From a virus, in IMG/VR virus record IMGVR_UViG_3300031337_000008, positions 1-24,070 of that record: a DNA stretch of 24,070 nt. One strand, 5' to 3'. The notes beneath the pieces were generated by a model. The model made no database searches and was not told the origin of the DNA. It saw only the letters and a list, made by a program, of their open reading frames with translations. Position 1 is the stretch's first letter. Each line of letters opens with the position of its first letter. Shown piece by piece: positions 1 through 19,447 of the stretch. Both the position numbers and the translations under genes were made by a program.

Positions 1-2659
1 CATTAATTATTTTTCGCTTTTTGTCCGGAATTTCCTCTCCGCTTATCCTGAATCCGAAGTCGTAATAGTAGACGGCCTTTGTACCTGAGACCAAATTTCG
101 CTTGACCACAAGCGCGTTGCAAACGGCGGATACGTGGAACTTGACCTGTTGGCCCCTGCGCCCGTGAAGGACATAAGTTCCTTTGGCAGGTTTAGCAACT
201 ACTCCTTCACTCCCCGGAAATTGCGTTAATTCAATCGTAGTTTCTCTTAATTCTTTTTCGTTTTTGCAAATAATAATCGGACTGCGATTTAGCCGAATAT
301 CAAGATCGGGTGCATCGTTAGTTTCCTGCCCGAAGTCAATCTCCTGCAAAACTTTATAACGAATCTCATACGGTTCTTTATGAATGTCGCCGGACGGCAA
401 TTCTTTTTCTTCTGAACCCTCCAATCCTCCGACGTAGACTACATCGTAGAAATTAAACACGATACTCGAATCGTCCGGTTCGGAAATTGAATTTGTATAT
501 CCGACAACCGCTTCTCTCGGAAGATGATGCTCGCCTTCCCACAATTCGACTTCCGCCAGCAGGCAGAGTTTATCCGCATTGAGTTTTCTGATCGCTTCTA
601 CAGTTTGCGGGTATCTGTCTGTATTCTCGTTTCCATCTTCTGAGTATATTTCGACGCGCTTTCCCGATTTCCATATTATCGAATTTAAACCATCATATTT
701 CTTTTGGTTTATAATTGGATAATCTTCCTCGCTGAATAAAGCCAGAAAATTCTCCAGCGATTGACGCTGCTCCGGCTGCGCTCCCTTCGTCGGTTTCATG
801 GTGATGAAGAATCTGAACATTTCTATTTCGTCTTCGTTCTTAGAGCGTTCGGCTTCGCGTTTCAATTCCGGTGGCGCGGCCCGCTGCTTCTGCGCATCTT
901 TTAACTTCATCTTATGAACGGGGACAAGCGCGAGTTCATATAAAGGAATATGAGATGTAAACGGCCCGTGGAAATAATCCTGAAGGATGTGAACGCGCTT
1001 CGGTGTAGATGACATTGACCTTAACGGCCCGGCGATTTTCTCACGAAATTCATCTTCAAAAACTCCGCGTATAAGAATGTCTATGTCTCCTTTAGTTGCT
1101 CGGCGATTTACAATTCCACCTATAAGGAAAATAAAAGGTGTTCGCAGTACGACAGTTTTAGCTTCATCGAGAATTTGTTGTTTAGTAACCGTCTCGTTAA
1201 TTACTGCGGATTCCGTAGTTTTTAACACGTCGCTTATTTGACTTCCGATTTCGCTCAATTCTTTTGTGAGATAATTCGTGTCAGCATCGAGCGACATTGC
1301 GACTACCTGGTGCTCCGCATTTATACGCCGTGCTACGAGAGCATAGAACGGCTCGTATGCTTCTTTATCAAGTTCCTCACTGTGATAATGATACTGTAAT
1401 TTTTCCGCGATTGACGAAGCGCGTCCTAAACGAAATTCAAGAGGTACTTTGAACGAACCATCAAAATTTCCGTTTACGTGAATGTCTACGGCACTCGCAC
1501 TTTCTCCAGAGAGAATATTTCCGCCGAGGCGCAGGAATGACGGGTCGATGATGAAGTCCTCATTGAAGTCTGAAATTACGTTTTCAAGTTTTAGTTCTCT
1601 GCCGATTTCTATGCCGGAACTATGAACAGGGGCAAGATCGTCTTCGTCAACGGCCTTTGCCTTATTGGAGTAATCCTCATCATATTCGCCTACGAGTAAA
1701 CTCTTTAATACACTTTCTTCCACAGCCGATTTTATTTTTCCTGCTAAACCTTCCCACCAATCTTCCCAACCCGGCTGGCCGTACCATGTCTTACCCGCTA
1801 CTGCTATTCGGGGATGTCCTTCGGTTCCCACATCATATTTTGCATAAATATTTTTCTTTCTGCTTAACGCTTCTGTCAATTTTTCGCTATCATTTTTATC
1901 GCGCGACAGCAGACGAATGACCACATAGGAAACTCGATCCTCACCATGCCCCTCACAAGAGGCTCTTATTTCCAGTTCTTCAATTTTTTCAATATTTTCA
2001 AGCCACTCGAATTTTAAGTGCTCGTCAATCATGATGCCGTTTTTCCATTCTTTCTCCGGAGTATCTATTCTACCCCGTAGCGGCGGGTCAGGTTCTTTTC
2101 CATAAACAGCTATGTAAGCGAGCGTCGGACTGTTGTAGCTTGTTCTCTGCCGCCCTACCGCGCCACTACCTGCGCCGCCACCTTGACTGCCGCCCTGTTG
2201 TTTTTCCTGTCCCCACGGCGGATTCGGACCGCCCGGCAATCCCTGATTATTGAGTTCCGTTTCTATTACGTCCCAGAGCGCAATCAATATTCCTTTCGGA
2301 ATCTCCGTATGCTGATGGACGTTTTCAATAAAATCTTCCGTGCGTATAAGATCATTCGGTTCGGCTGCACCGATTATACCCATCACATCTTTTTCAAGCC
2401 ACTCGCGCACTACTTTGATTGTCTCGGATGTTTGATCGAGTTCGAGCGACATGCTCGGAAACAGGAATCGCGAGAGCATCTCGTGGACGATCCAGGCGTG
2501 GGTCTTCCTGACGAGTTCCTCCGTCCAGTTTTCGTACTTCACGCCGCGCTTGAGGTTCGCCCAGTAAACATGCATCCACCTGTGGTCATCGAGCAGGACG
2601 CTGTCGTCGAGTTTGGTGACGGCTTCTCGGTTCTCATACGGCTTCGATATTTTCTGCAT
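1..2659 (-). CDS. Nucleotidyltransferase / ATP-dependent DNA ligase-like fusion protein (3' end off window)
   Basis: The minus strand is open for 886 codons from ATG at 2659 to the window edge with no stop, so the C-terminus is missing. GAGGAG lies 9 nt before the start. Residues 1-140 are unrecognised. A Gly/Gln-rich linker spans about 140-170. A GG...DIH patch (379-394) looks like a degenerate nucleotidyltransferase motif. Residues 510-530 carry a clean polymerase-beta-type signature, GG (514-515) then DID (525-527). Residues 650-845 look like a covalent nucleotidyltransferase (DNA ligase) core: KYDG (654-657, candidate adenylated Lys654), AEVEL (702-706) for motif III, FNFYDVVYV (735-743) for IIIa, EGVVAK (818-823) for IV and VKFHV (839-843) for V. 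The gene follows the minor head protein in the head operon, an odd place for a ligase. The domain motifs are seen; activity is inferred. It might be a virion-delivered modifying or repair enzyme. Residues 479-488 are encoded by a copy of the palindromic repeat. Confidence 0.8.
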   Translation of the reverse strand, partial: MQKISKPYENREAVTKLDDSVLLDDHRWMHVYWANLKRGVKYENWTEELVRKTHAWIVHEMLSRFLFPSMSLELDQTSETIKVVREWLEKDVMGIIGAAEPNDLIRTEDFIENVHQHTEIPKGILIALWDVIETELNNQGLPGGPNPPWGQEKQQGGSQGGGAGSGAVGRQRTSYNSPTLAYIAVYGKEPDPPLRGRIDTPEKEWKNGIMIDEHLKFEWLENIEKIEELEIRASCEGHGEDRVSYVVIRLLSRDKNDSEKLTEALSRKKNIYAKYDVGTEGHPRIAVAGKTWYGQPGWEDWWEGLAGKIKSAVEESVLKSLLVGEYDEDYSNKAKAVDEDDLAPVHSSGIEIGRELKLENVISDFNEDFIIDPSFLRLGGNILSGESASAVDIHVNGNFDGSFKVPLEFRLGRASSIAEKLQYHYHSEELDKEAYEPFYALVARRINAEHQVVAMSLDADTNYLTKELSEIGSQISDVLKTTESAVINETVTKQQILDEAKTVVLRTPFIFLIGGIVNRRATKGDIDILIRGVFEDEFREKIAGPLRSMSSTPKRVHILQDYFHGPFTSHIPLYELALVPVHKMKLKDAQKQRAAPPELKREAERSKNEDEIEMFRFFITMKPTKGAQPEQRQSLENFLALFSEEDYPIINQKKYDGLNSIIWKSGKRVEIYSEDGNENTDRYPQTVEAIRKLNADKLCLLAEVELWEGEHHLPREAVVGYTNSISEPDDSSIVFNFYDVVYVGGLEGSEEKELPSGDIHKEPYEIRYKVLQEIDFGQETNDAPDLDIRLNRSPIIICKNEKELRETTIELTQFPGSEGVVAKPAKGTYVLHGRRGQQVKFHVSAVCNALVVKRNLVSGTKAVYYYDFGFRISGEEIPDKKRKIIN
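1197..1225. repeat. Palindromic element copy 1 (intragenic)
   Basis: 29-bp imperfect inverted repeat, left arm TTAATTACTGCGGA, right arm TCCGTAGTTTTTAA. It lies inside the nucleotidyltransferase-ligase gene and is read in frame as LKTTESAVIN just before the DID nucleotidyltransferase region. The right outer arm has T in place of A or T-A-T seen elsewhere. Confidence 0.85.
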
Positions 2660-2675
2660 GATTTTCGGCTCCTCG

Positions 2676-2703
2676 TTAATTAATGCAATCCCGCAGTAAT
2701 TAA
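2676..2703. repeat. Palindromic element copy 2
   Basis: 28-bp copy and the most diverged (TTAATTAATGCAATC / CCGCAGTAATTAA). It fills the gap between the stop of the minor head protein gene (2707) and the GAGGAG ribosome site of the ligase-like gene (start 2659). Confidence 0.7.
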
Positions 2704-2706
2704 GGT

Positions 2707-4911
2707 TTAATTAGCAAATGATTTGCGAATTGAATCAGAAAAAATTTTCTTCATTTTTTCAGAAACTGAGAAAGCAAATGATGCGGCGATTGTCGAAATA
2801 ACCGTGGTGGTCCTACAATTCCCAGACCACGTACATTTACCATTTCTGCGAACATATAGAATATGATTTTCCGGCAATTCAACGCAGTATACTTTATCTG
2901 CATAATTTTCCACGGTAAACAAATCCCTCTTTTTAAAAATTTTATTTTTACTATTTAATTCAGAAACAAGAATAATATCATAGTTAGATGCATAAATTCC
3001 ATTTCGATGTTCTGATATAGTTCCCTTTTTGTTTCCGAGACGAAATGAAGGTAGCTTGCCACACTTAAAAATAAGTTCCCCAATATCATCAGCCAATTTT
3101 TTACTTGAAGTCGAAGCTATCCTTGTTGGTTTGAAGTTGGCTACCCAACTTCCTCCTTTTTTTGCGTTTATACTTTTGTTGTCGCGTACAGTACCGTCAC
3201 CATAAAAATAAGACCTCAATAATCTTCTTAAATATTTTGGAGATAACTTTTTCAATCCTTTCGGTATATATTTTTCATGGCTGTGACCAAGCCGTTTTAA
3301 ATATTTATATAGATCGTGATCTTTACCAGATACATAGACACCACCTTTCCATTTATCTACCTTAAAATGTTTACCGAATAATTTCGTAAGTATTGAAAAA
3401 ATTATTTCAATACTTTCAGCGTCCTTCTCTTGTGCTATTTTAATCGCCCAGTAAGACTCATTTTTGTTCCATGATCTATCTGATATACTTCCCTCTGATA
3501 AATACCACCCCATAAAATCCATAAATAAACCCATATTATATTTTTTATCACCGATGCTTATGATTTTTTTAGAAATGCCTTTCCATTTTCCAGTCCGTGG
3601 AATAACATCGCTGTCGGCCATTGAATCGGCACTTCTAATTCTTACTATAGTGCCACCTTTTTTTTTTTTGAAGCGATGTGACGGAATATAAGCCATATTG
3701 TGATCTGGTGTTACGAGTAAATCAAAATTTCTATTTTTAAAATGAATCATTTTGCCCTGATACTCGTATTCTATTTTTCCTATCCCTTCAACATATTCAA
3801 TTTCACGTGTTACCGGATTCAGCGATGCAAAAGATTCTGTTCCAGATATTTGTTCAAAATCAATCCATCCGTCTTCCGTCAATACTTCGGTTCCCTTCGC
3901 ATAACACAGATTATGAAACGGACTAAGTATAGCGCCCGACTTCTCTAACGCCGCCGAGTTCCTTCCCGCGTCATTCCCGCGCGGAAAACTGAACTTTTCA
4001 TCACCCACGTAATGCTGATATTTACCGGAACTTATTTCTTCCGACCGCGTGAACGGTTTGAAGGCGATGATGTCATCCGGCGTTTCCAGTGCGAGTAAAG
4101 TATCAACGTGATTCGCAACATTTTCCACATAAACAACTTTCCCATCTATGTCGAGACAGAACGGTGTGGTACGAGCATCTATGACCGCTGCATATTCTAT
4201 GACGGTGATTTCGGCTTGTTGATAAGTTCTGACCTGCCCCACGTTCCGCGCGAGGTTGACTTGATAACTCGCTAACTGGTTCCACGACTTATAATCCTTA
4301 TAAGTGTTCCCCAGTTTATCTTCGAGCATCCGCGCGATGGATTCAGTATCAAGAGTTTCCTTGAAACCCTGGGCCAGAATTTTCCTGATCCTGGGGTCTT
4401 TCACCCGCTCATAGTTGGTGGACATCCACGTCTCGAACTGACCGTCCACGGCGAGGAGCGACCTCTCATCTATAGTGGTAAATGGATTGACAAGCGCGGG
4501 TGAGACGCGAGTAGCCGCGAAATCCTTCGACGCCTCATACGTGACCCGGACAGTATCATTTATATCATCGAGAATTTCCTGAGAAAATTTTTTACCCCAA
4601 ACCGTTTTTGATACCTTTAGAAAATCATTCTGCGCCGACTTCTTCAAGGTTTTTATCCCGGCGCGAGTCGTGATATTCTCAGGCGTAACAAGATCGCCAA
4701 CCAAACGACTCAAATTTGCATCGGTCTCGGAAATTGCATCCGCATAACCAGCGAGGATACGAGCAAAAACTTCATCCTCTTTCCCTATGATAAAATTCTG
4801 AAATTCACGCGCGGTGGGTTGTTTCATAAGACCGACAGACGATCCGCCCAGCGTCAGCAGCAGAATATCATCCACAAGGCCCAGCGCCTGCTTACTCAGA
4901 ATCTTGTTCAC
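2707..4911 (-). CDS. MuF/SPP1 gp7-type minor head (head morphogenesis) protein containing an intein
   Basis: Minor head protein of the SPP1 gp7 / Mu gpF family, which helps assemble the procapsid around the portal. Numbering from the TTG at 4917, the longest ORF is 736 residues. GTG at 4911 is the better start because AAAGGA lies 8 nt upstream. The family's hallmark region is at about 220-262, with DARTTPFC (248-254) and LDIDGKVV. The terminal HxxC-R motif is split: HNL (335-337) is followed by a 363-residue intein (338-700), then CRTTT resumes at 701. Splicing would give about 373 residues and restore HNLCRTTT, matching the family's HPNCR-like motif. The gene overlaps the portal gene upstream, the usual portal-MuF order. 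The ligase-like fusion gene follows. The family call is firm; splicing is inferred from intact intein motifs. Confidence 0.93.
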   Translation of the reverse strand: MNKILSKQALGLVDDILLLTLGGSSVGLMKQPTAREFQNFIIGKEDEVFARILAGYADAISETDANLSRLVGDLVTPENITTRAGIKTLKKSAQNDFLKVSKTVWGKKFSQEILDDINDTVRVTYEASKDFAATRVSPALVNPFTTIDERSLLAVDGQFETWMSTNYERVKDPRIRKILAQGFKETLDTESIARMLEDKLGNTYKDYKSWNQLASYQVNLARNVGQVRTYQQAEITVIEYAAVIDARTTPFCLDIDGKVVYVENVANHVDTLLALETPDDIIAFKPFTRSEEISSGKYQHYVGDEKFSFPRGNDAGRNSAALEKSGAILSPFHNLCYAKGTEVLTEDGWIDFEQISGTESFASLNPVTREIEYVEGIGKIEYEYQGKMIHFKNRNFDLLVTPDHNMAYIPSHRFKKKKGGTIVRIRSADSMADSDVIPRTGKWKGISKKIISIGDKKYNMGLFMDFMGWYLSEGSISDRSWNKNESYWAIKIAQEKDAESIEIIFSILTKLFGKHFKVDKWKGGVYVSGKDHDLYKYLKRLGHSHEKYIPKGLKKLSPKYLRRLLRSYFYGDGTVRDNKSINAKKGGSWVANFKPTRIASTSSKKLADDIGELIFKCGKLPSFRLGNKKGTISEHRNGIYASNYDIILVSELNSKNKIFKKRDLFTVENYADKVYCVELPENHILYVRRNGKCTWSGNCRTTTVISTIAASFAFSVSEKMKKIFSDSIRKSFAN
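2818..3906 (-). other. Intein with LAGLIDADG homing endonuclease inside the minor head protein
   Basis: In-frame 363-residue insertion. The splicing motifs are present: block A begins at Cys338 (CYAKGTEVLTEDGW), block B is LLVTPDHNMAY with His406, block F is VYCVELPENHILYV with His685, and block G ends WSGN (Asn700) before the +1 residue Cys701. The penultimate residue is Gly instead of the common His, a known variation. Two dodecapeptide motifs mark a LAGLIDADG (DOD) endonuclease: LFMDFMGWYLSEGS (464-477, acidic Glu475) and LLRSYFYGDGT (566-576, Asp574). Both acidic residues are kept, so the endonuclease may be active. The sequence is more AT-rich and lysine-rich than the flanking extein, consistent with separate ancestry. 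Confidence 0.93.
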
Positions 4912-6616
4912 TCGCAAGTTCCTTTATTATAAGTTTCCTTATATCTAAGAGATGTTCGACAACGGCCGCTTCGACCTCCCCTTCGGAGGTAGGAACTCCT
5001 TCACTCCCGGATCCCGGAAGACCCTCGGTTCCTTCCGAGACGCGCTCGCTGTGCAGCAAAATAGGATATGGCAGGTTCGCCCAGTCCATTTCGATTTCAT
5101 CCTTACCGACTTTCTGTCGGAGTTCATTGATGGTATACGTGGCGAGCCGCGCGTAAATGTTATCGACCCGCGCCTCTTCGAGCGGATCGCCGATCTTCGG
5201 ATGCTCAAAATAAATAGTGACAAGTGCCTTCTCCTTGAACCTGATGTTGCCGTCCGTCGTCTCGGTGTACTCGAAGTGCTGCTTCCTCATCTCGTCTGCG
5301 AGTGCGTCCCGCTGCTCGAGCGGTGAGAGTCTCTTGAAGAGGGAGAGCGGAGTTCCTTCATTCTCGTCCATGCCCACGAAACGTGCCACGGCGTTATCGT
5401 GACTCAACTCGTGATCGCGTTCGAGCAGATCAGCGACGATGGTATGATAGAGGCGATATTCTTTTTTCTTCGTCGCGGGGAGGAACACCTGATCGTTAGT
5501 GATGCGGCGGGATTCAGTCGCGTTACCCTTCGAGATATTTTTCGTTCCAAAAAAAATCTGACCAATACCGAAAGATTCTCTAATCTCCTCATCGTTGGCA
5601 GCTCGATATTCCAAGAATGAGGCGTCGTCCTTCGACCCAACGCCGATCTCCTTAATCTCGATCTTCGCGCCGGTGTTGCCGAGCGGCCCCATACCCGCTC
5701 CTTCCGACTGTAGCACCATCGTGCGGTGTGCGTTCGCGGTTCCCTTCTGTTCGGCGGCCATGAATTCGCGGATACTCTGAACCGATTTGGACGAGAGCTT
5801 GCCGCCCGTCACTGTGATCGCCAAATTGGGAACGGCGTTGTTCTTGAAGAAATTAACGTTCCTCTCGGCGGCGAGCCTGTTGCCGGAGACGGCGGGTGAG
5901 CAAGACGTGTATCCTGGAACGCCGTAGATCGGCGAACTCGGTGAGTAAGTTTTAAAGTGAATGATCTCGGACGCCCGCTGGTCGAGTGGCAATTTCTCTT
6001 CAACAAATTTACCGGTGCTGACATCCATAGTTCGCAGATCGCCGAAGTTTTTGAAGAACCGTTTCTTCCCCTGAATCGTCTGGATGAAACCGTCGCCATT
6101 GGCGAGCACCCTCATTATGCTAGCGGGCGCGTGATATAGCTGTGCGATCTTGCCGATGAGATTCCTGACCACTTCAACATAGCCGTTACCCGTCGCTTCC
6201 TCATCGATACCCTCCTGCTCCATCATCTGATTGAAAGACATATCCTTATTCGGATGGTCGAACACGGTTCTCAAGGTTGCTATCTGACTGGCGACCTTTG
6301 CCTTGACTTCCGGCGATGTATTCGGCGTGATCTCAAACCCGTCCACGAATCCGATCCTGTATCCATAGCCGACCGTATTCTGAACCTCAGTATGGATGCA
6401 GCGCGAGAGGCGGGTCGAGTATTCCATCATTGATCCCCACAGCACGGGATCGAAGGGCGGCTTGAGCGCGCCCGTTCTCGTGAACGACTTGTCAGAGACT
6501 TTCAACTGTTGAGAGTGCTCGACGGAGGCGGACTTGATGACGAGAGCCTCCACGACTTCGACGTTCGATTTCTGCGACTCCGAACCCGGCCTATTACTCC
6601 TTCTCTTCTTTGCCAT
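4892..6616 (-). CDS. Phage portal protein
   Basis: Forms the dodecameric DNA portal at one capsid vertex, the docking site for terminase and tail. The longest ORF starts with GTG at 6625 (577 residues), but ATG at 6616 has AGGTG about 7 nt upstream and is preferred (574 residues). Seen: an N-terminal basic stretch (KKRRSNR), FDPVLWGSMMEYSTRLSRCIHTEV near residues 58-82 of the long form (given here only by its start, FDPVLWGSM), a Tyr-rich AGNGYVEVVRN-like core (ATGNGYVEVVRN), FGIGQIFFG and a C-terminal acidic, Gly/Ser-rich tail. This resembles the PBSX/SPP1-like portal group. It lies between terminase and the minor head protein, the standard packaging order, and overlaps the 3' end of its upstream neighbour and the 5' end of its downstream one, suggesting translational coupling. 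Confidence 0.88.
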   Translation of the reverse strand: MAKKRRSNRPGSESQKSNVEVVEALVIKSASVEHSQQLKVSDKSFTRTGALKPPFDPVLWGSMMEYSTRLSRCIHTEVQNTVGYGYRIGFVDGFEITPNTSPEVKAKVASQIATLRTVFDHPNKDMSFNQMMEQEGIDEEATGNGYVEVVRNLIGKIAQLYHAPASIMRVLANGDGFIQTIQGKKRFFKNFGDLRTMDVSTGKFVEEKLPLDQRASEIIHFKTYSPSSPIYGVPGYTSCSPAVSGNRLAAERNVNFFKNNAVPNLAITVTGGKLSSKSVQSIREFMAAEQKGTANAHRTMVLQSEGAGMGPLGNTGAKIEIKEIGVGSKDDASFLEYRAANDEEIRESFGIGQIFFGTKNISKGNATESRRITNDQVFLPATKKKEYRLYHTIVADLLERDHELSHDNAVARFVGMDENEGTPLSLFKRLSPLEQRDALADEMRKQHFEYTETTDGNIRFKEKALVTIYFEHPKIGDPLEEARVDNIYARLATYTINELRQKVGKDEIEMDWANLPYPILLHSERVSEGTEGLPGSGSEGVPTSEGEVEAAVVEHLLDIRKLIIKELASEQDSE

Positions 6617-6809
6617 CTTCGTCACCTACCGCTGGTATTAGTTTATATTCGCGAGAAGAGACCACATCCTGCACCATACCATCCTGTACTTTAATTGTCA
6701 ATTGCCCAGTACCGTAGGCACCTTTCTGGAGTAAGTTTTCTTTGATCCATCGAACGAGAGAATCAAGATACTGCTTGTTTCGTTTCTTATAATGAGTATT
6801 CTCAGTCAT
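6594..6809 (-). CDS. Small YezD/DUF2292-like protein
   Basis: 71 residues. The centre (LLQKGAYGTGQLTIKVQDG, then MVQDVVSSREYKL) resembles the short DUF2292/YezD family, whose members carry a 'G.v.i.vq.G.v..i' beta motif; the likeness is by eye. The C-terminus is acidic (DEDGKEEKE). The start codon overlaps the stop of the preceding gene by one base (TAATG), and its own 3' end overlaps the portal start, so it belongs to the packaging operon. The function is unknown, and a structural or regulatory role is equally possible. Confidence 0.75.
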   Translation of the reverse strand: MTENTHYKKRNKQYLDSLVRWIKENLLQKGAYGTGQLTIKVQDGMVQDVVSSREYKLIPAVGDEDGKEEKE

Positions 6810-7171
6810 TACTTTTCACCTACCGTCAGAGGTTCTGCCCGCGAGCACAACTGCTCGTCAGGTTTATAATTTTTATTACAGATTACCAGCTTTACATTTC
6901 CATCAGTAAATTTAAAACGGGGATCGTCAATCTCACTCTGAAAAGCGCAGTACGTATCTTGGTGACAGACCAGAAATACGGCACCTTGCTCGCCTTTCGG
7001 TTCTTCTTCTTTTGGAGCGTCAAGACTGTGGTCGCGCTCGACTATAACGCATCTAAGGCTATCCATTATGCCCACGACTGAATGTGAGTTTTCTACTTCG
7101 CGCAACAATCGTTCTAAGTCCGCAGCACCATCTACTTCGAGAACTATATAACGAAATGGATTATCTGTCAT
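6809..7171 (-). CDS. Hypothetical protein between terminase and portal
   Basis: 120 residues, not recognised. The N-terminal 50 residues (FRYIVLEVDGAADLERLL...) could form an alpha/beta unit. A Pro/Glu/Lys-rich linker (about 52-62, APKEEEPKGE) separates it from a second part with three spaced cysteines (C81, C87, C109 region; VCHQDTYC). There are no membrane segments. ATGA overlap with the terminase stop (7168-7171) indicates coupled translation within the head operon. Confidence 0.75.
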   Translation of the reverse strand: MTDNPFRYIVLEVDGAADLERLLREVENSHSVVGIMDSLRCVIVERDHSLDAPKEEEPKGEQGAVFLVCHQDTYCAFQSEIDDPRFKFTDGNVKLVICNKNYKPDEQLCSRAEPLTVGEK

Positions 7172-8814
7172 ATAATAAGCACGCCCCCTTCATTTCTCGA
7201 TCCGCGACCGCGCTCTTCGGATTCTTGTTCTTTTTCTTCTTCGCTTTCGCTTTCATCTTCGAGATCATCCGGATCAACTGGAAACTCACTGAGATATAAA
7301 AAATGCAGCATAGCACAAAGAAATGCGTCACAAGAATGGTCATCTTTTTTTACAGGCATCCCGCGCTCGTCCTTATGCAGCTTGTCGAGTTGAGAAGCAA
7401 GTATCGGGCATTTCCTCTTGCTAATCTTCACCTTGCCCGTCTCCATGTACTTCACACAGTTATCTATACCGATCTTCTTCCACTGTCCGAACGGAACGGC
7501 AACAACTTGGAATCCGGCGTTGTAAACGTCAGCATTATTGAAGGGATGAGAAGCATCCGCATAAACAATGAACTCACCGAGAATTTTTTTTAGTTTTCTA
7601 AGGTAAGAAATAATATCTACTGTACTTGTAGTAGTAAAAAGCGCTTCCGTCGGAACAGCCACATGCTCCAAATGTCTCTGTACGGGGATGACAGCAGTTT
7701 GGGAAGCGAAGCCCCAGTCTATACCTACCGCCGTCCTCGCACCCTTTATGATCCTGACCTGGTTAATGATATATGTGAGAGCGCGGTCAAGATCGTCCTT
7801 CGGATAAACGCGGCCTTTGCGCGTCGGCCTCTTGCACTCCCACTCGACACGGAAGTTCTCTGCGGTGTTTTTCTTCTTAGCGTCAAGGACATTACTGCGG
7901 TTGAGCCAGCCCTTCGAGTTCCTCGCCTTGCCGTTGCAGCCGTCGTACTTATATTTCGTTATCCGACCTTTGGTATCACGGACGGGAACTCTCTCTGTGA
8001 GCGGACAGTCGCGACAGTCGATCTTCGCCTCGCACTTCTTCATGATGTCGTAGACATTCCACTTATATTTCTTGTATCCGCGCGCCTTCGCGTGATCCCA
8101 ATTATCTTCAAACCAACCGCCCGTAACATGAAATGTGGAGAGTGCAAGAATGGTATATTCTGGTTCTGAAAAAACCATATTTATAGCGGTCTCTATAACC
8201 GGATCAACGGTTGTATCCTTCTGACAGGCCTCATCTATAAAAATATTTGGTGGATGTTTCCCACGAGCAGCTTTTTCTGATGTTGGCACACATTTTAACT
8301 TGGGACCCGTTACCAGTTCGGTATTGGATTTAAGAGGCTCGCCTTTTACTATCAAGACTCCTTTAACGCCGATACATTCCTCTGAGAAAAAACCAACAAC
8401 GTATTCATAAACATTTTGACTTTGCTCCATACTCCCCGCGAGGTCGATGCAGGACTCTTGTTTCCAAACCATTTTAATAAAAATAATAATAGCCGCAACA
8501 AGCGAACCGCCTCCGCCTCTACTTTTCCAGATGATGCCGCAGAACGTACTGTGAATCCAGAAGTCCCAAATAGCATCCATCTGTTTATCAATGAGAACAA
8601 TATCTATGACGCGCCCATCTTTTATAATCTTGAGGTTATTCTGAATCCAGTCCTGTAACTCTTCCCTATTTCTAAACGTAACAGGAAGTCCGTACTTACC
8701 GGGAGAGTATTCAGAATACGCTCCGCCTTCGAGCGTGGCGATCAGTTCGTCTATGTGCTCCGACCGCTGCTTAACCGGCGCTGTTTTCGCACTGGCTGTT
8801 TTCGATAAAGTCAT
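7168..8814 (-). CDS. terL: Large terminase subunit (TerL), ATPase plus nuclease
   Basis: Packaging motor that translocates DNA into the procapsid through the portal and cuts it. 548 residues. The ATPase domain occupies about 70-240. The Walker A region reads KSRGGGGS (97-104): the lysine is at the front of the loop instead of before the final Ser, the same layout as lambda gpA KSARVGYS. Walker B is IFIDEA (191-196; D194, E195). The coupling motif is LALST (223-227). A Cys cluster C261, C267, C270, C293 between the domains suggests a zinc knuckle. The RNase H-like nuclease domain shows GIDWG (D366), VYADAS (D420) and KKDDHSCDAF (D491/D492, D496). The C-terminal tail is very acidic (515-535). 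The 5' end overlaps the RHH gene by 44 bp and no strong ribosome site is visible, so the exact start is less certain than the identity. Confidence 0.92.
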   Translation of the reverse strand: MTLSKTASAKTAPVKQRSEHIDELIATLEGGAYSEYSPGKYGLPVTFRNREELQDWIQNNLKIIKDGRVIDIVLIDKQMDAIWDFWIHSTFCGIIWKSRGGGGSLVAAIIIFIKMVWKQESCIDLAGSMEQSQNVYEYVVGFFSEECIGVKGVLIVKGEPLKSNTELVTGPKLKCVPTSEKAARGKHPPNIFIDEACQKDTTVDPVIETAINMVFSEPEYTILALSTFHVTGGWFEDNWDHAKARGYKKYKWNVYDIMKKCEAKIDCRDCPLTERVPVRDTKGRITKYKYDGCNGKARNSKGWLNRSNVLDAKKKNTAENFRVEWECKRPTRKGRVYPKDDLDRALTYIINQVRIIKGARTAVGIDWGFASQTAVIPVQRHLEHVAVPTEALFTTTSTVDIISYLRKLKKILGEFIVYADASHPFNNADVYNAGFQVVAVPFGQWKKIGIDNCVKYMETGKVKISKRKCPILASQLDKLHKDERGMPVKKDDHSCDAFLCAMLHFLYLSEFPVDPDDLEDESESEEEKEQESEERGRGSRNEGGVLII

Positions 8815-8986
8815 AGATCAATGTCTCAGCATCATCCGTAACAGACGGACGGCTCGACAGAAATAGGAATAGTTTCACAAGACCTCGGACCACAACTACT
8901 CGCTTGATGCCCAGTTTATCCGCAATCTCATCCAGTTGCCGCACGTCTTCCGGTTCGAGCTGAATATTTATTCGTTGTAATTTCAT
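8771..8986 (-). CDS. Ribbon-helix-helix (CopG-like) DNA-binding protein
   Basis: 71 residues. MKLQRINIQLEPEDVRQLDE (1-20) followed by IADKLGIKRVVVVRGLVKLFL fits a beta strand plus two helices of the RHH fold. Such proteins bind short palindromic operators as dimers. The gene sits directly before TerL and overlaps its start. AAGGA lies just upstream of the ATG, and palindromic element copy 3 ends 5 bp before the start codon, so the element overlaps the ribosome-site region. It may regulate the head operon or bind the palindrome; a small-terminase role is an alternative but there is no direct support. Confidence 0.8.
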   Translation of the reverse strand: MKLQRINIQLEPEDVRQLDEIADKLGIKRVVVVRGLVKLFLFLSSRPSVTDDAETLIYDFIENSQCENSAG

Positions 8987-8991
8987 TTTCC

Positions 8992-9020
8992 TTAATTACT
9001 ACGGATTCCGCAGTATTTAA
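8992..9020. repeat. Palindromic element copy 3
   Basis: 29 bp, arms TTAATTACTACGGA and TTCCGCAGTATTTAA. It contains the stop codon of the 108-residue gene (9017-9019) and ends 5 bp before the ATG of the RHH gene, so it forms the whole junction between two genes of the leftward operon. Confidence 0.85.
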
Positions 9021-9343
9021 TCCAGTTCCCAATCGTGGACAGCGGATGACAAATTTTTTCTGACCTTTCCCTTCCTGGGTCCATCAGGTTTGCGCTTCAA
9101 AATCTTAAGCGTTTTCTTACCGGGACGAAGTTTGATCTCCGGCAGGATCGCTCCAACTAGAACGAAGGGCAGACTTTCGTGTCGAACGACGACTACGGCG
9201 TCGCCTTCGTCCTCGAACACCTGAACGATCTTAGCGTCGGCGGGCAGGCAGCCGTTCGCTTTGAGCATGCCGGATAAAAAACTCTTGGTCAGCGTCAAAG
9301 TTCCCAGGTTGCGATTATTCGATGTGTCTTTCTTTTTCGTCAT
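9017..9343 (-). CDS. Hypothetical basic protein, first gene of the head operon
   Basis: 108 residues, unrecognised. The N-terminus is basic (MTKKKDTSNNRN). The middle is compact and probably beta-rich (AKIVQVFEDEGDAVVVVRHE), followed by a basic stretch LRPGKKTLKILKRKPDGPRKGK (given here as two parts: LRPGKKTLKILKRK and PDGPRKGK) that could touch nucleic acid. A sigma70-like promoter lies so close upstream that the predicted transcript start is only about 4 nt from the ATG, so the message would be nearly leaderless. The stop codon lies inside palindromic element copy 3. Confidence 0.7.
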   Translation of the reverse strand: MTKKKDTSNNRNLGTLTLTKSFLSGMLKANGCLPADAKIVQVFEDEGDAVVVVRHESLPFVLVGAILPEIKLRPGKKTLKILKRKPDGPRKGKVRKNLSSAVHDWELD

Positions 9344-9353
9344 CTCTAACTAC

Positions 9354-9381
9354 ATGATACCATCCTGCTATCATTCGTCAA
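9354..9381 (-). promoter_or_regulatory. Promoter of the leftward head operon
   Basis: On the minus strand, TTGACG (9381-9376), a 16-bp spacer and TATCAT (9359-9354). Each hexamer differs from the sigma70 consensus at one position. The predicted start is near 9347, just before the ATG at 9343. Confidence 0.6.
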
Positions 9382-9393
9382 GAGACTAAGCCA

Positions 9394-9428
9394 TAAAAAA
9401 ATCCGGGTGACTCTGTGGTGACCCGGAT
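9394..9428 (-). terminator. Rho-independent terminator (leftward)
   Basis: 8-bp perfect stem ATCCGGGT (9401-9408) with ACCCGGAT (9421-9428), a 12-nt loop, then seven T residues on the minus strand (A run at 9395-9401 on the plus strand). It stops leftward transcripts before the head-operon promoter. Confidence 0.8.
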
Positions 9429-9461
9429 CGGCAGAGCGAACCTGCCGCGACGTGGCGATAT
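9394..9461 (-). ncRNA. Candidate small structured RNA in the divergent control region
   Basis: A free-standing transcription unit on the minus strand with no convincing ORF. A promoter-like TTGACG-16-TATTCT lies at 9495-9468. The predicted RNA is about 68 nt and holds a hairpin with stem GGCAG/CTGCC (9430-9434 with 9442-9446) and then the intrinsic terminator. Its placement between the leftward and rightward promoters suggests a regulatory RNA. It is inferred from sequence layout only. Confidence 0.45.
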
Positions 9462-9467
9462 ACCTAA

Positions 9468-9495
9468 AGAATACCGGCTTTCTCCGAAACGTCAA
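9468..9495 (-). promoter_or_regulatory. Promoter-like site for the candidate small RNA
   Basis: TTGACG at 9495-9490, 16-bp spacer, TATTCT at 9473-9468 on the minus strand. Its -35 hexamer and spacer match those of the head-operon promoter. The -10 is weaker. Confidence 0.4.
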
Positions 9496-9620
9496 GGGTA
9501 TAGGACGATCAATTATTCCGAGAAAACCTATTCGCTCTGAAATCACTTTTTCCAAAAATCGTCAAAATCGTCGGCAAAAACCCTTTTAATTAAAGGATAA
9601 ATTATTTCTTTTGAAAAGGG

Positions 9621-9648
9621 TAGACAAAATCAAATAAATTATTATAAT
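9621..9648 (+). promoter_or_regulatory. Strong promoter of the rightward accessory block
   Basis: TAGACA (9621-9626), 16-bp spacer, consensus TATAAT (9643-9648) in very AT-rich DNA, about 30 bp before the first rightward gene. This is the best sigma70-like promoter in the window. Confidence 0.75.
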
Positions 9649-9683
9649 TATATATAGAAGTTAAAAAAATAGGGAGGATGAAA

Positions 9684-10178
9684 ATGAACTACATGGAATT
9701 CAGACCAGAAGAGGCACAGAGAGTGCTACGGGAAATGGAGAGAAATCATCAGGTAGACTACTCAGGCCGCAGGGTATACCAGAGAAGAATATATCAGATA
9801 GTAGATGCCCTGACCTTCGCCCTCACGCCGACAGAAGAAATCAAAAGAGATCGAAAAGAAAGAGCGGAAAACAAAGCGAAGCGCGAGCGCAAAGCTCGCA
9901 TACAGGAGGCGCGCTATACGAGAGGAGGTGACGGAACGAGAAACCCAGACAACAGAATGATGATGGGAATATGGCAATGTGAAGCCTACAACAAAACAAT
10001 GTTGGACGCGATCAAGGCATTTGCGGAAACATATTGGGATAAACCGCGCAGGGCCAGGAAGCCCGATGAGCACGGTTATTTCAAAATTATGGGGGGAAGG
10101 AATACATACCGCTGCGAGCTGGTCAATGGTGTGCCCGGTGTTTCCCCTGAAGTTTGGAGAATAAAAGGAATAGCATAG
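9684..10178 (+). CDS. Hypothetical protein, first rightward gene
   Basis: 164 residues from ATG 9684. The ATG at 9678 is in frame, but AGGGAGG (9671-9677) abuts it directly, whereas it is 6 nt from 9684, which is preferred. The N-terminal helical part (FRPEEAQRVLREMERN) is followed by a very basic, charged helix rich in Lys/Arg/Glu/Ala (about 50-78, KRDRKERAENKAKRERKA). The C-terminal part ends GVSPEVWRIKGIA. No family is recognised. It is driven by the strong promoter and is likely an early, highly expressed protein, possibly nucleic-acid-binding from its charge. Confidence 0.75.
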   Translation: MNYMEFRPEEAQRVLREMERNHQVDYSGRRVYQRRIYQIVDALTFALTPTEEIKRDRKERAENKAKRERKARIQEARYTRGGDGTRNPDNRMMMGIWQCEAYNKTMLDAIKAFAETYWDKPRRARKPDEHGYFKIMGGRNTYRCELVNGVPGVSPEVWRIKGIA

Positions 10179-11670: not shown

Positions 11671-11952
11671 ATGAGCGAAGCTGGAATACATCGTGGCGAT
11701 AAGTTCGAGATCGAGGTTTGTTTCTTCAAGCGGATGAGGGTGATCGGGAAGGTCGAGGACGTTTCACAGTCCAGCGGCCTCGTCAGCTTGTCGCTCGGCG
11801 ACCCGGAGCGGTTGATCGAGCGGCGGCGGGCGGACCTGAAGATCAGGCTCGCGCCGGACGCGCCGGAAGGCGTCATCACATATCCCGGAGACGCGGAAGA
11901 CGAAGTGCGGAGCCGTTACGCGGCCTTCGGAATCAAGGGGAGGAAGACATGA
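11671..11952 (+). CDS. Hypothetical small protein, possibly beta-barrel-like
   Basis: 93 residues from ATG 11671. GAAAGGAG lies upstream at 11654-11661, about 9 nt away, and the earlier in-frame ATG 11626 lies inside the preceding gene. Strand-rich text (GDKFEIEVCFFKRMRVIGKV EDVS) followed by VSLSLGDPERLIERRRADLK suggests a small OB- or SH3-like fold, but no family is recognised. Codon use is more GC-rich than in its upstream neighbour. The stop overlaps the next ATG (ATGA). Confidence 0.7.
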   Translation: MSEAGIHRGDKFEIEVCFFKRMRVIGKVEDVSQSSGLVSLSLGDPERLIERRRADLKIRLAPDAPEGVITYPGDAEDEVRSRYAAFGIKGRKT

Positions 11953-12254
11953 GCAAGCACACACCTGGGCCGTGGACTGTAAGAGAAAAACAAAATGGCG
12001 GTAAAAAATCTCGCGTATTTTCAACGGCGATAATGGGTGGAGATAACATTCATTGGGTTGTAACGCAAGTATGCGGGCACGACCACAAAGGATCACAAAA
12101 AGCCAACGCTGCACTAATAGCCGCCGCCCCCGACCTGCTCGAAGCCTGTGAGAAGGCAATCGTATACCTGAACCAGTGCCCGAACATCAAAGCGGCCCCG
12201 GCCCGAGAAGCAATCTTAAAGGCGCTGAAGAAAGCGGAGGGAGAATTAACATGA
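11949..12254 (+). CDS. Phage accessory protein of the 'HTPGPW...NAxLIAAAPDLLEA' type
   Basis: 101 residues from ATG 11949; GGGGAGGA sits just upstream. It starts MSKHTPGPW and contains KANAALIAAAPDLLEACEKA at about 52-71 and a helical C-terminus. This start and middle motif recur in many unrelated phage genomes as a small conserved protein of unknown function; I recognise the pattern but know of no assigned activity. Overlaps its upstream neighbour by ATGA, indicating coupling. Confidence 0.85.
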   Translation: MSKHTPGPWTVREKQNGGKKSRVFSTAIMGGDNIHWVVTQVCGHDHKGSQKANAALIAAAPDLLEACEKAIVYLNQCPNIKAAPAREAILKALKKAEGELT

Positions 12255-12370
12255 CCTGGTTCATCGAGACGTGGAAGACGATCCTCACCGAGGCGCCGGA
12301 GTACGGTTATCCGGCGATCCTGTTATTCATACTCATAACGGGATACTGCATAAGGAGGCTGACGACATGA
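12251..12370 (+). CDS. 39-residue single-pass membrane protein
   Basis: From ATG 12251; GGAGGGAG lies just upstream. MTWFIETWKTILTEAPEYG is followed by a hydrophobic segment YPAILLFILITGYCI (about 20-34) and a basic end RRLTT, predicting one membrane helix with the C-terminus inside. It overlaps both neighbours (ATGA with the coiled-coil gene). A membrane anchor or regulator for the following coiled-coil protein is possible; a holin role is not supported because it is very short and no lysin is nearby. Confidence 0.65.
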   Translation: MTWFIETWKTILTEAPEYGYPAILLFILITGYCIRRLTT

Positions 12371-12888
12371 GACCGAAGGAACAGAAAACGATGAAGGATC
12401 TGCGCGAAGCGCTGAAGAAAGCCCGCGAGGTCAAGAACACGATGAAGCTGGAACGAGATGCATCGGTCGAGCGAGCGAAGCGAGCGGAAGCGGCAGTAAG
12501 GGGAACTGAAGTCACGCGGCGCGATAACAGGAAACAAATCGAGCGGCTGAGTGACCACGTAGCCGAGCTCGAAGCAGAACAGGAAAAGCATCGACACACG
12601 CACGCGAATCAGCTGAACCTGATAAACGACTACTGGGCGCGGTACGAGAGAGCGCGCGATGCACTTGCAGTAGAACGCGACAAGATCGCCAGCGCGTTGC
12701 TCGCTGTGAACGACCTCGACCCACAGACGGGACTCGACGTGAACCGGCTACTGGAGAAATGCGGCGTAACACTGGCCACCTACGAAACCGAAGTACAGGC
12801 GCTGGAGTATCGGCTGATGCTGGGTGAAACAAAAGATCCCGAAACGACAGAACCGCCCCACACGCGGCAGGGCGGTCCCGGTGACTGA
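12367..12888 (+). CDS. Coiled-coil protein
   Basis: 173 residues from ATG 12367, which overlaps the preceding stop. Residues 1-120 are highly charged with heptad-like spacing (LREALKKAREVKNTMKLER, then RKQIERLSDHVAELEAEQ), predicting a long coiled coil. The C-terminus is Pro/Thr/Gly-rich (DPETTEPPHTRQGGPGD). No family is recognised. As the last gene of the rightward block it could pair with the small membrane protein just upstream. Confidence 0.75.
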   Translation: MRPKEQKTMKDLREALKKAREVKNTMKLERDASVERAKRAEAAVRGTEVTRRDNRKQIERLSDHVAELEAEQEKHRHTHANQLNLINDYWARYERARDALAVERDKIASALLAVNDLDPQTGLDVNRLLEKCGVTLATYETEVQALEYRLMLGETKDPETTEPPHTRQGGPGD

Positions 12889-12966
12889 GCGATCCATATT
12901 ACCCCTCAGCTTTCTGAGTCAATGATACCACGCCCAGGCGGCTGAAGTCAAGCGCGGAGGAGAAAG

Positions 12967-12994
12967 GGTCCGGTTTGCACCGCGGGCCTTTTTT
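12967..12994 (+). terminator. Rho-independent terminator of the rightward block
   Basis: Stem GGTCCGGT (12967-12974) with ACC-gc-GGGCC (12979-12988), with a 2-nt bulge and one G-T pair, 4-nt loop, then six T residues (12989-12994). It lies about 80 bp after the last rightward stop. Confidence 0.7.
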
Positions 12995-13003
12995 CATCTC
13001 TGC

Positions 13004-13032
13004 TTAATTAGTGCGGAATCCGCAGTATTTAA
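13004..13032. repeat. Palindromic element copy 5
   Basis: 29 bp, TTAATTAGTGCGGA / ATCCGCAGTATTTAA, 10 bp after the rightward terminator. It is the only copy not touching a gene end. Confidence 0.85.
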
Positions 13033-13683
13033 AAAACCGCTGCGGCTCACCCCCCCTTTTTTTTTACCGATTTCCTCTATTATACGCGCACGCGCACACA
13101 CGCGCCTGCGCACACATGATATTAGTAATATTTAAAGATATTAATCTTTTAAATACTTTAAATGATTATGCCGTAGCAGTTTCGAGATTGAAAAACGAAA
13201 TTACATAAGTAGTATAGAAAAACTTCTCTGAAAAAGACGTATCTCGAGATCGCGACGGGATCGGTAAAAAACACCGACCCGTACCACGGGCATGGTATAC
13301 CGCTACAGTACATAAAAATTCCAAAAATTTTTTCCCACGCAGCCCACCAGACCGGTTACGGTTTGGGACCCTCATCGATTAGGGACAAAATATAATCTGT
13401 TAGAGTCTGAGGCCCCCACCATATACGTTCAAAAATTAAATCCGTAAATCTGCATTGATTTTTCCTGAGAGGGAATATTCTGCAGACTTATTAAACCGCC
13501 GGTGTGTGGGGAACGGAGTCTTCATAGGGGACAACCATGCGTGACGCCCCTATAATTGCGAGCGCGTGGGTACACGTATACGCGGGATCATACACCATGC
13601 GCGCATGTGCTGCACGAACTCGCACAAGGGTATATCAATGTATGGGGCACGCCGTGAAAATCCCTTAGACGCTAAAACGAGAA

Positions 13684-13711
13684 GTGTCTGTGAGTGTCTG
13701 CGGGGTGTCTG
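13684..13711 (+). repeat. Three phased GTGTCTG repeats
   Basis: GTGTCTG at 13684-13690, 13694-13700 and 13705-13711, spaced 10 and 11 bp so that all lie on one helical face. This is iteron-like spacing, next to palindromic element copy 6. Confidence 0.6.
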
Positions 13712-13737
13712 TTGCGGGGTAATCATAATCGGGGATT

Positions 13738-13766
13738 TTAATTACTACGGAATCCGTAGTATTTAA
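13738..13766. repeat. Palindromic element copy 6
   Basis: 29 bp with a fully paired core: TTAATTACTACGGA / ATCCGTAGTATTTAA. It supplies the stop codon (13763-13765) of the leftward RHH gene. Confidence 0.9.
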
Positions 13767-14053
13767 CTTTTTGTGTGGTACTGATCCGGAGAGATACCGG
13801 TTGCCTGCCGGATGGCTTTTATCTTGGCGGTTCGGTCGTCGTCGGGAACTTCCAGGTCTTCTAATTCCTCGTCGATCTCCGGATTGTCTTGTTTTCTCAC
13901 GCGCTTCTTCTTACTGGAATTGCCGTTCATGGCGGCCTCGATCAGGTCGCGGATAGTGTCTGATTCCGAACGATCTCGCGTTCGCTGATCGTACAACCAA
14001 TCGTTCTGTTTCTTCGTGATGAAAAAGTTCTTTGAGATCATCTTCTTGGACAT
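13763..14053 (-). CDS. Ribbon-helix-helix-like DNA-binding protein
   Basis: 96 residues from ATG 14053, with AGGAGG 7-8 nt upstream. Residues 1-42 (SKNFFITKKQNDWLYDQ, then RDRSESDTIRDLIEAAM) fit an RHH/CopG-like fold. The rest is basic (SSKKKRVRKQ) then strongly acidic (EIDEELEDLEVPDDD). Two related AT-rich 21-23 bp sequences lie upstream, one over the promoter, so autorepression is likely by analogy with RHH repressors. The stop is inside palindromic element copy 6. Confidence 0.75.
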   Translation of the reverse strand: MSKKMISKNFFITKKQNDWLYDQRTRDRSESDTIRDLIEAAMNGNSSKKKRVRKQDNPEIDEELEDLEVPDDDRTAKIKAIRQATGISPDQYHTKS

Positions 14054-15997: not shown

Positions 15998-17365
15998 TTA
16001 CTTCGGCGCTTTTGAAGCATTCCACCGCTTTATACTGTCGGGGGATTCTACGCCAAGTGCAACTATTCCTTTCATGGCTTTCTCTCTGTCGGCTTTTAAC
16101 TGCCGCTCTTGTTCCCATAAGAGTAACAGGGCTTCTCCAATTTTCTTTCGTTTAGCGGGCGATTGCCATGGAATAAGAACTTGCCCAACTTCTGGCCAGT
16201 ATGATGTGTACCGGCCAGACCCAGGTGACAGAGATTGCATATCCGCACGTATTTCGTATGACCGAAGTATCGCCCAAAGATAAGCGGTATCTTCGGGGCT
16301 TCCACACTCAAACACATTGTAGCTTCCAGATACAAGCGATTTGTCTAATTCTGTCGGCACAATCCCTATCGCGCCGTCCGTAGCCCGGATTGTAGAAAAA
16401 ACCATTTGCCCCGCTTTCACCCTGTACATTTTTTTCGCCTTAATCAATCTTCCAAGGCGCTTACGTTCAAGCAGACATACCCCGTCGTATGTAACTTTAA
16501 TTAGAGTAAACTCAATATCCGGATGGTCAGAGGGCACCACTTCATCTTCAATTATTTTCACGCATTGACTAAATTCCTTTATTTCAATTCCGGCTTTACG
16601 CCACTTGGCAGCCATGCGACCGAACAATGGCACACAGAATTTCAAATCTAACCGATCCGCAATATCCTCTGGTTTTAAGACGATCGGACCCGTTTGCCCA
16701 GAAAGGTACGCTTGATAGCCTGAAATAATTTTATCTGTCTCTTCTTCTGCTTTGTCTCTTGCTGCCTGAATATCGGCATCCGAAGCACGCGGGGTTAGAT
16801 CATCAATACCGAGATACTCAGAGAAGAAAGCAAAGCATCCAGGTTGTTTATCGGCTCGTGACCGCTTCTTTTCTAAGACCAATACCGAGGTTTTTACTCG
16901 AGAACCTGAACGACGGAATGTATCCCCAGGAAGGGAAATAATACCGCGAATCAAGAAGCGTTCCCTAATGAAATTTCTAACATAGTCAAATACGGTGCTT
17001 GAAAGAAGTGTATCATCAATAACCGTTATCAACCTACCACCAAGTTTGAGTATATTCCAGTATCGTTCAAGAAACATAACACTCGAACGTAGAGAAGGGC
17101 GCAACGCAGAAGAAGATTTGTCTTTGTGAGCAAGATCGTACTGTTCAAGGATTTTCAGTTCCGATGGGTTCTTTGTCTCTTTTGTCATAGAGAACGGGGG
17201 ATTGGTTAAGACTACATCAAATTTTCGTTTTCCCTGCAAAGTCTCCCTCAACTCTTGGATGTTTTGAACCACTTCTGGGTCATCCCCCCAAGTAGACGTA
17301 TCAAGGGCAGGATCAAGAGCATCCGCATAGTAGATACGACTTCCACCATCACCATATAAGTACAT
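15998..17365 (-). pseudogene. N-terminally truncated N6-adenine methyltransferase fused to a specificity (TRD) domain
   Basis: 455 residues from the first ATG, and similarity to HsdM-type enzymes starts earlier in the same frame at about 17416 (GIDYGKDPPLARIARINM). Seen: MYLYGDGGSRIYYADALDP typical of the HsdM core, motif IV NPPF (55-58), and HsdM-like IRGIISLPGDTFRRSG-type text. The last 200 residues are HsdS-like, with YWPEVGQVLIPWQSPAKRKK and a terminal helix that look like a target-recognition half-domain. The SAM-binding motif I region and the helical N-terminus are absent: a stop in this frame at 17465 and a different gene lie there. It is thus a remnant of a type I/IIB-like M-S fusion, probably inactive alone. 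Confidence 0.75.
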
Positions 17366-18268: not shown

Positions 18269-19447
18269 TCAAAAACGATGGTACGCCAGGCCTCGCGGCC
18301 TCCACAACAGCCTTGTTTTGTTATAGCTTACAGGAAAATTATCATCAAAGTTTGTTCTCAGCGTTATACATCTTGTCTTTAAGCTTCTGATTGATCCAAT
18401 TACTGTTCCTCTGGTTTGGTGCAAAGCTTTTACAATGTCCCAATGTTTGAAACCATTTCGCTCTGTGGTGATTTTGGTCGGATTATTCTCCCAGATTTTT
18501 GTACGTTTTGGAACGATTAAATAAGGATGACATTGATAATTATTCGCTCCAGCCATTGCCGAGGCGTCAAAGTGGTGGTCTTTCTCCAGGCCCAGGGCGC
18601 TTCTCGCCCTGGCGGTCATCCAACCGAAACAAACTTTTACGTCGGTGAAGCGCTTCTTCAGTTCGTTGAACAAATACCATTTACCTTGCTGGAGATGCGC
18701 GGGGTATTTGAAATGTCTCGGGCTCTGCGTCAACACCCATTTGCCATTATGCAGGTCATCATGACATTCCTTGCAAAGCGTTATGCCATTCTTTGGCCTA
18801 TTGGTCCCGCCTTTGGAACGCGGGACAATGTGATGTGCCTGGAGATTTTCTTCACTTTTGCAATGCTGGCAAGTATATCTGTCTCTCCATAAAACTTTCT
18901 GGCGCCAGTTGTTGCCCTCATATTCGGAACGCTGGTACTCTTTGCCTGTTAATTTGTAGCCGGCGCTTATTGAAGAAGTATCAAATTGCCCCTGTTCAAC
19001 CACGCAGGACGTGATGTTGATACGCTTTTTCAGGTCGTCGATTACGCGGAGGATGGATTCCTTCTTCTGTTTGATCGTGGGTGGTAGCCAGGCTTTCTTT
19101 CCACGGTTAAGAAACCGGGGCTTTCTGTGGCGCAGTTTTTTGCCTCTGCGGGTGCGTCTGTACCGCATACGCTGAAGCATCTTTTTGTGAACGTCCTGTC
19201 TGAGCTTGATGTTCCCGGCGAAGACGACTTTGTCCTCATGTGCCACGGAAATACCGGCGACTTTGGCCCCGTCGTCAATACCTATCTTGAATTCTCCGAC
19301 GGGGTTACTGATCTTTCTTTTGAGCTGGATCGTGAACGGTACTACTGAATAAACGCCTGCTTTGCCTTTCCTTAACAAGATCCTCGCCCTTGCTTCACAG
19401 GTCGGAAGCAGGGGCGTTCCTTCTGTGTCGATTACAAAAATCGGCAT
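18269..19447 (-). CDS. iscB: IscB RNA-guided nuclease (OMEGA family, Cas9 ancestor type)
   Basis: 392 residues, normal IscB length. Order: PLMP-type N-terminus (MPIFVIDTEGTPLLPTCEAR), RuvC-I with GIDDG (D58), Arg-rich bridge helix (RYRRTRRGKKLRHRKPRF, about 95-112), RuvC-II with CVVEQG (E151), and an HNH domain with C193/C196, AHHIVPRSKGG (H205, H206) and C225/C228. RuvC-III reads HHFDAS (D294), and a C-terminal beta region closes with the family's tail (SYNKTRLLWR). All catalytic residues are present, so nuclease function is plausible. IscB uses an omega RNA, usually encoded just upstream, to cut target DNA and help keep the transposon. Here it is paired with an IS607-type serine recombinase in place of the usual Y1 transposase. 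The last residues read into the transposon-end hairpins. Confidence 0.95.
   Translation of the reverse strand: MPIFVIDTEGTPLLPTCEARARILLRKGKAGVYSVVPFTIQLKRKISNPVGEFKIGIDDGAKVAGISVAHEDKVVFAGNIKLRQDVHKKMLQRMRYRRTRRGKKLRHRKPRFLNRGKKAWLPPTIKQKKESILRVIDDLKKRINITSCVVEQGQFDTSSISAGYKLTGKEYQRSEYEGNNWRQKVLWRDRYTCQHCKSEENLQAHHIVPRSKGGTNRPKNGITLCKECHDDLHNGKWVLTQSPRHFKYPAHLQQGKWYLFNELKKRFTDVKVCFGWMTARARSALGLEKDHHFDASAMAGANNYQCHPYLIVPKRTKIWENNPTKITTERNGFKHWDIVKALHQTRGTVIGSIRSLKTRCITLRTNFDDNFPVSYNKTRLLWRPRGLAYHRF

Follow-up and report, generated by a model that had tools for sequence, protein, structure and literature searches.

The window, by which we mean the whole stretch of DNA that was analysed, is the linear IMG/VR fragment IMGVR_UViG_3300031337_000008, with a length of 24,070 b. 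At one end it carries a long open frame that starts with an ATG and reaches the end of the record without a stop codon, the gene being truncated by the record end. A spacer of 47 bases separates this frame from the gene for a MuF-type minor head protein, and the genes for the portal protein and the terminase large subunit (TerL) lie beyond it on the same strand (Table 1). The MuF gene contains an intein (Hint and LAGLIDADG-like) at 2818-3906 (-). Elsewhere the window encodes an N6 adenine DNA methylase at 15998-17365 (-) (PF02384, E=1.1e-10), possibly part of a restriction-modification system, and the RNA-guided nuclease IscB at 18269-19447 (-) (NF040563, E=1.7e-90, above cut-off). The same window holds an IS607-like remnant at 20198-20434 (-), composed of a MerR-type HTH and the start of a resolvase.

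Table 1. Coordinates of the ligase gene, its domains and the adjoining head genes in the window (residues are those of the window protein)
Feature	Position	Strand	Remarks
Truncated polyprotein gene	2..2659	(-)	886 codons up to the record end; the protein of sister record L002 has 1,342 aa or more
Residues 1-165, helical N-terminal region without a family	2165..2659	(-)	Helices in the AlphaFold model, of low to middling confidence
Residues 171-317, conserved uncharacterised domain "D2"	1709..2149	(-)	
Residues 353-457, degenerate Pol-beta-type NTase copy (GG...DIH)	1289..1603	(-)	
Residues 487-588, Pol-beta-type NTase with LIGG...GDIDIL	896..1201	(-)	
Residues 630-852, ATP-dependent DNA ligase catalytic (adenylation) domain, motifs I-V	104..772	(-)	PF01068 and fold match
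Lys654 codon, predicted adenylated lysine (KYDG)	698..700	(-)	Invariant in 22/22 homologs
Residues 853-886, start of OB fold, cut by record end	2..103	(-)	
MuF-type minor head protein, directly upstream of ligase gene	2707..4917	(-)	
Portal protein	4892..6625	(-)	PF04860 E=1.7e-26, phrog_12 2e-41
Terminase large subunit (TerL)	7168..8814	(-)	phrog_2 E=1.8e-15

Domains of the truncated protein and its sister

The initial annotation had named two nucleotidyltransferase (NTase) signatures and five ligase motifs in this frame, and all of them were located: the degenerate GG...DIH at residues 378-394 and GG...DID at 512-529, followed by KYDG (654-657), AEVEL (702-706), FYDVVYV (737-743), EGVVAK (818-823) and VKFHV (839-843), so that ligase motifs I, III, IIIa, IV and V occur in order. 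PF01068 is the sole Pfam match of the window protein (residues 646-835, E=1.7e-11, above the curated cut-off), and no match was obtained against PHROGs. The AlphaFold model matches archaeal DNA ligases with E=7e-18. Family and predicted fold both identify the frame as a genuine ATP-dependent DNA ligase, as had been proposed. Across 22 homologous open frames, the Lys, Asp and Gly of motif I (P0006 K655, D657 and G658) are invariant and the residues of motifs III, IV and V nearly so; the loss of Lys654 in homologs, which would have spoken against the assignment, did not occur. The domain identities and the conservation of the ligase catalytic residues are shown. The C-terminal OB fold, cut in the window, is whole in the sister record L002, where it is modelled at high confidence. 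Matches of relatives to mRNA capping enzyme and RNA_ligase were set aside as weak, as were those to PMBR, AbrB and ARPP-1.

In L002, which is 98% identical to the window record, the protein has a length of 1,342 aa or more. Its OB fold ends at about residue 945, followed by a complete cytosine-5 DNA methyltransferase at residues 1031-1341 (PF00145, E=6.9e-58), where L002 stops too; exact 30-base and 32-base patterns used to go beyond this end returned the same record alone. The two genes are 99-100% identical save for codons 445-545, which are 82% identical at the DNA level (dS 0.79, dN 0.089). The differing segment (window 1025-1327 (-) versus L002 9333-9638; 18% divergence) looks like a recombined allele that spans the intact NTase motif and is under purifying selection.

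The NTase preceding the ligase is likely of the Pol-beta type, as first suggested, and in the window it forms a pair of which one copy is degenerate. The motif hG[GS] x9-13 DhD is conserved in most of the 29 NTase copies compared, and nearly all members having the domain keep DxD in at least one copy. The third acidic residue is variable among members. When the NTase profile was compared with the PDB, Pol-beta and TdT were the sole matches, both below threshold (E 0.04-0.7), and AlphaFold confidence over the region is middling (pLDDT about 50-73). Where the domain is duplicated, the degenerate copy is the first in the window and the second in L008, L011 and L013; the most distant relatives, L027 and L029, are without an NTase. 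In the 2,036-aa member L022 (6013-12123), an intein is inserted in the NTase domain (LAGLIDADG at residues 879-938).

The D2 domain, with the consensus SPT.AY..VYGKEP ... RASCEGH ... GTEG..RI..AGK..YG...W..WW, gave no credible match in the PDB and occurs only fused to the head-module ligase (5/5 records). A search with D2 as the only query recovered two new records, in which D2-NTase-ligase-OB-PE (PE, 3'-phosphoesterase-like domain) is located between TerL and MCP, and this architecture is therefore independently confirmed.

Relatives, phosphoesterase-like domains and head genes

A first search for relatives, with the ligase regions of the window type, L003 and ANMV-1 as queries, returned 24 viral loci, and later searches brought the final set to 38 non-redundant loci, six MAG contigs included. 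These loci have the ligase core in common and, in nearly all cases, the NTase and the OB fold, the longest frame having 2,036 aa; some members are fused to a prohead protease, to Dam or to a metallo-beta-lactamase domain. In L017, L019 and L022 the metallo-beta-lactamase domain stands ahead of the NTase, and a NifX/FeMo-Co-like domain stands past the OB fold. In L024 the ligase core is divided between two frames (8563-9828 and 11949-13955) with three frames between them, possibly an inserted element. In the phage isolate collection, ANMV-1, an archaeal virus (PMC4372165), was the only match. The six genome matches were assigned to Euryarchaeota, Methanophagales, Methanosarcinales (three contigs) and one "bacterium" MAG. 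Within the class containing L031 and L032, a strong match was found in only 3 of 58 genomes, and therefore the gene is no host housekeeping gene. The host of the window's tailed virus is probably to be sought among methane-cycling archaea or their neighbours, and bacterial hosts are possible for part of the family.

Two conserved regions, PEa and PEb, sit after the ligase in most relatives and resemble the 3'-phosphoesterase (PE) of LigD. Such LigD-PE-like domains were found in 29 of the 38 loci, fused in 20 and at most five genes downstream in 9; six of the nine loci without them stop inside the ligase gene. The profile of the second region (A5) matched archaeal LigD-PE structures (3p43, E=1.9e-6; 3p4h, 6.3e-4), and Pfam LigD_N matched 4 of 13 PEa members, best at 4e-4. 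In fold comparison with the AlphaFold model of the PE pair (mean pLDDT 74), the top seven matches were all LigD-type PE, five of them with E<=0.001. By sequence, the PEa profile gave only lambda repressor in the PDB (E>0.4), which was dismissed as chance. PEa retains the pattern Q.H.RG.S.H.D.R, which we take to be the metal site and Arg of the LigD PE, one more residue of which (His84-like) is presumably replaced; PEb is without the His residues of the LigD PE. The domain was seen in relatives only, none being visible in the window or in L002, whose record stops at the methyltransferase; the window's own protein would presumably carry it as well. Fused or adjacent, these domains lend strong support to the earlier suggestion of an end-modifying or repair enzyme. 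Since no primase-polymerase (POL) domain was found among the 22 members scanned with Pfam and no Ku (PF02735) in any of 21 (partial) records, the protein is not filed as a LigD.

The placement of the gene in a head operon likewise holds and recurs in dozens of records. Within four genes upstream of the ligase gene, 26 of 38 loci have a portal-like gene in the same orientation; with L026, added by PF04860, the number is 27. The portal group C2 (e.g., L003 and L019) has no family match and was called portal from its position and its profile (hhalign against verified portals, 83%, E=9e-6). MuF is directly upstream of the ligase gene in 8 of the 38 loci, and in other loci genes for a prohead protease and the major capsid protein are downstream of it. 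XkdF (PF14550) was detected in 3 of 22 members, located in L014 and L018, the third being taken as L015, a close relative of L014; in these (L015 by similarity) the end of the ligase frame is an XkdF-type prohead protease, and in L041 it is an HK97-type prohead protease (TIGR01543, 3.3e-8). Both the linkage to head genes and the protease fusion in relatives can thus be read directly from the loci. A protein whose frame ends in a prohead protease should belong to the prohead, and the predicted virion-borne character of the enzyme gains from the fusions of either type. The other suggested role, that of a nucleotidylating effector, is possible, the NTase motif being its one piece of positive evidence.

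Two neighbours in L004 (ANMV-1) are worth recording. The gene at 1913-3193 (AJP62005.1) is annotated as "MutT-like phage hydrolase" but codes for a portal protein (PF06381, E=3.2e-22), and that at 5868-9368 (AJP62007.1), adjoining the ligase, encodes a 1,166-aa repeat protein very rich in cysteine with, by eye, a MuF-like C-terminal tail.

Comparison with known systems

Iyer and others described phage polyvalent proteins as multidomain proteins that combine unrelated enzyme domains and are encoded beside virion genes in portal-terminase phages, often near MuF, and proposed that they are packaged and injected; the domains listed include DNA adenine methylases and Pol-beta NTases (Iyer et al., 2017; PMC5512222). 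The head-module ligase protein is similarly large, combines several unrelated enzyme domains (ligase, NTase, PE, C5 MTase, Dam, MBL and protease) and is encoded among the virion genes of portal-terminase viruses, often by MuF. However, a DNA ligase or LigD-PE domain is not mentioned in the text of PMC5512222, and the proteases fused in the relatives are prohead serine proteases, not zincins. Polyvalent proteins were also described as scarce in archaea, with examples above 1,000 aa almost only bacterial (PMC5512222), whereas relatives of the ligase protein occur in ANMV-1, an archaeal virus, and on archaeal MAG contigs. Set against the published polyvalent proteins, what is new is the core of ligase and PE, the fusion to prohead serine proteases and the occurrence in viruses of archaea.

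Another system for comparison is LigD, the NHEJ ligase with the PE, POL and LIG set (PMC7719229). As in bacterial and archaeal LigD, an ATP ligase with its OB fold is joined to 3'-phosphoesterase-like and nucleotidyl-transferring domains; in contrast, the latter is a Pol-beta-type NTase instead of a primase-polymerase, the PE is duplicated and placed after LIG, and the protein is viral, head-located and without Ku. End joining for phage circularisation is known in principle (Pitcher, 2006, as cited in PMC7719229). The ANMV-1 protein AJP62006.1, deposited as "ATP-dependent DNA ligase" (KP703175), shares the NTase-ligase-OB core of the window; it has the order NTase-ligase-OB-PEa-PEb directly after the portal and, unlike the window and L002, is without the D2 domain, the second NTase and the methyltransferase. 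The ligase is unmentioned in the main text of the 2015 ANMV-1 paper (PMC4372165). MuF polymorphic toxins (PMC5576092) resemble the present case in variable effector domains tied to the MuF/head position, whereas the enzymes described here have a gene of their own beside MuF and resemble DNA repair and modification enzymes, not toxins. In the open text of PMC, no description of a portal-linked ligase was found.

Proposed role and alternatives

That dozens of related viruses keep a fused ligase among their head genes suggests that their particles are equipped to mend or protect the genome on its way into the cell. We judge it somewhat more likely than not that the product of the gene is a polyvalent head-module protein, centred on its ligase and resembling LigD, which would probably be packaged and enter together with the DNA, there to repair, seal or protect the incoming genome; packaging, ejection, enzymatic activity and substrate are what we infer here. 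The polyprotein would be made alongside the portal, MuF and prohead protease and built into the prohead, where in some viruses the fused protease would free it; it would then enter with the genome and would seal and protect the linear DNA ahead of viral gene expression. The core of NTase, ligase/OB and, in most relatives, two PE-like domains would clean 3' ends and seal breaks, and the NTase could possibly add nucleotides. Further processing or marking of DNA may fall to the variable extras (cytosine or adenine methyltransferase, metallo-beta-lactamase domain). More tentatively, and with less than even confidence, we propose that in tailed viruses of anaerobic archaea a head-borne, Ku-free, LigD-like machine, with Pol-beta-type NTase, ligase and 3'-phosphoesterase on a single chain, would enter with the DNA and heal breaks, blocked 3' ends or free genome ends ahead of all viral gene expression.

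The main rival is an ordinary replication or repair ligase, encoded in a late operon, that seals nicks during infection and is left unpackaged. Each of the 17 records checked (mostly partial) has this gene as its sole PF01068 ligase, which could serve replication, and therefore a late-expressed ligase is a live alternative; the modest proteins of some records, such as L010 and L008 (590-630 aa), with no fused head protein, also fit it. It nonetheless seems rather unlikely in view of the gene's persistent location next to the portal, MuF and protease genes across divergent viruses, the prohead protease fusions of several members, and partners that are methyltransferases and PE instead of replication genes. 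The protease fusions, which put some members at the prohead, together with the immediate proximity of TerL, portal and MuF, would suit an enzyme acting at the portal or terminase during packaging, sealing nicks or repairing ends in the producing cell and not in the newly infected one; the C5 and Dam methyltransferase fusions better fit protection from restriction on entry, and we regard this possibility as improbable.

A counter-defence effector, whose NTase would nucleotidylate a host target and whose ligase/PE would repair RNA (e.g., cleaved tRNA) or neutralise a defence signal, would agree with the proposal that Pol-beta-type NTases of published polyvalent proteins are protein modifiers (PMC5512222), and with the swapping of the NTase segment by recombination between near-identical records, as can happen in conflict genes. 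It is nevertheless very improbable: DNA ligases account for the matches by family and by fold, RNA-ligase models scoring lower or not at all, the PE and the DNA methyltransferases point to DNA, and a dN/dS of about 0.11 gives no sign of diversifying selection.

If the favoured reading of a delivered, genome-mending head protein is true, virions would bring DNA repair with the genome, besides counter-defence proteins, and a new explanation would be at hand of how long-persisting sediment viruses deal with DNA that is damaged or linear, and of how genomes are closed in tailed archaeal viruses without Ku. The NTase-ligase-OB-PE set beside a portal is a marker by which such viruses can be found, and compact new ligase/3'-phosphoesterase fusions are on offer. 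The theme of polyvalent proteins is likewise extended to viruses of archaea whose proteins are very large.
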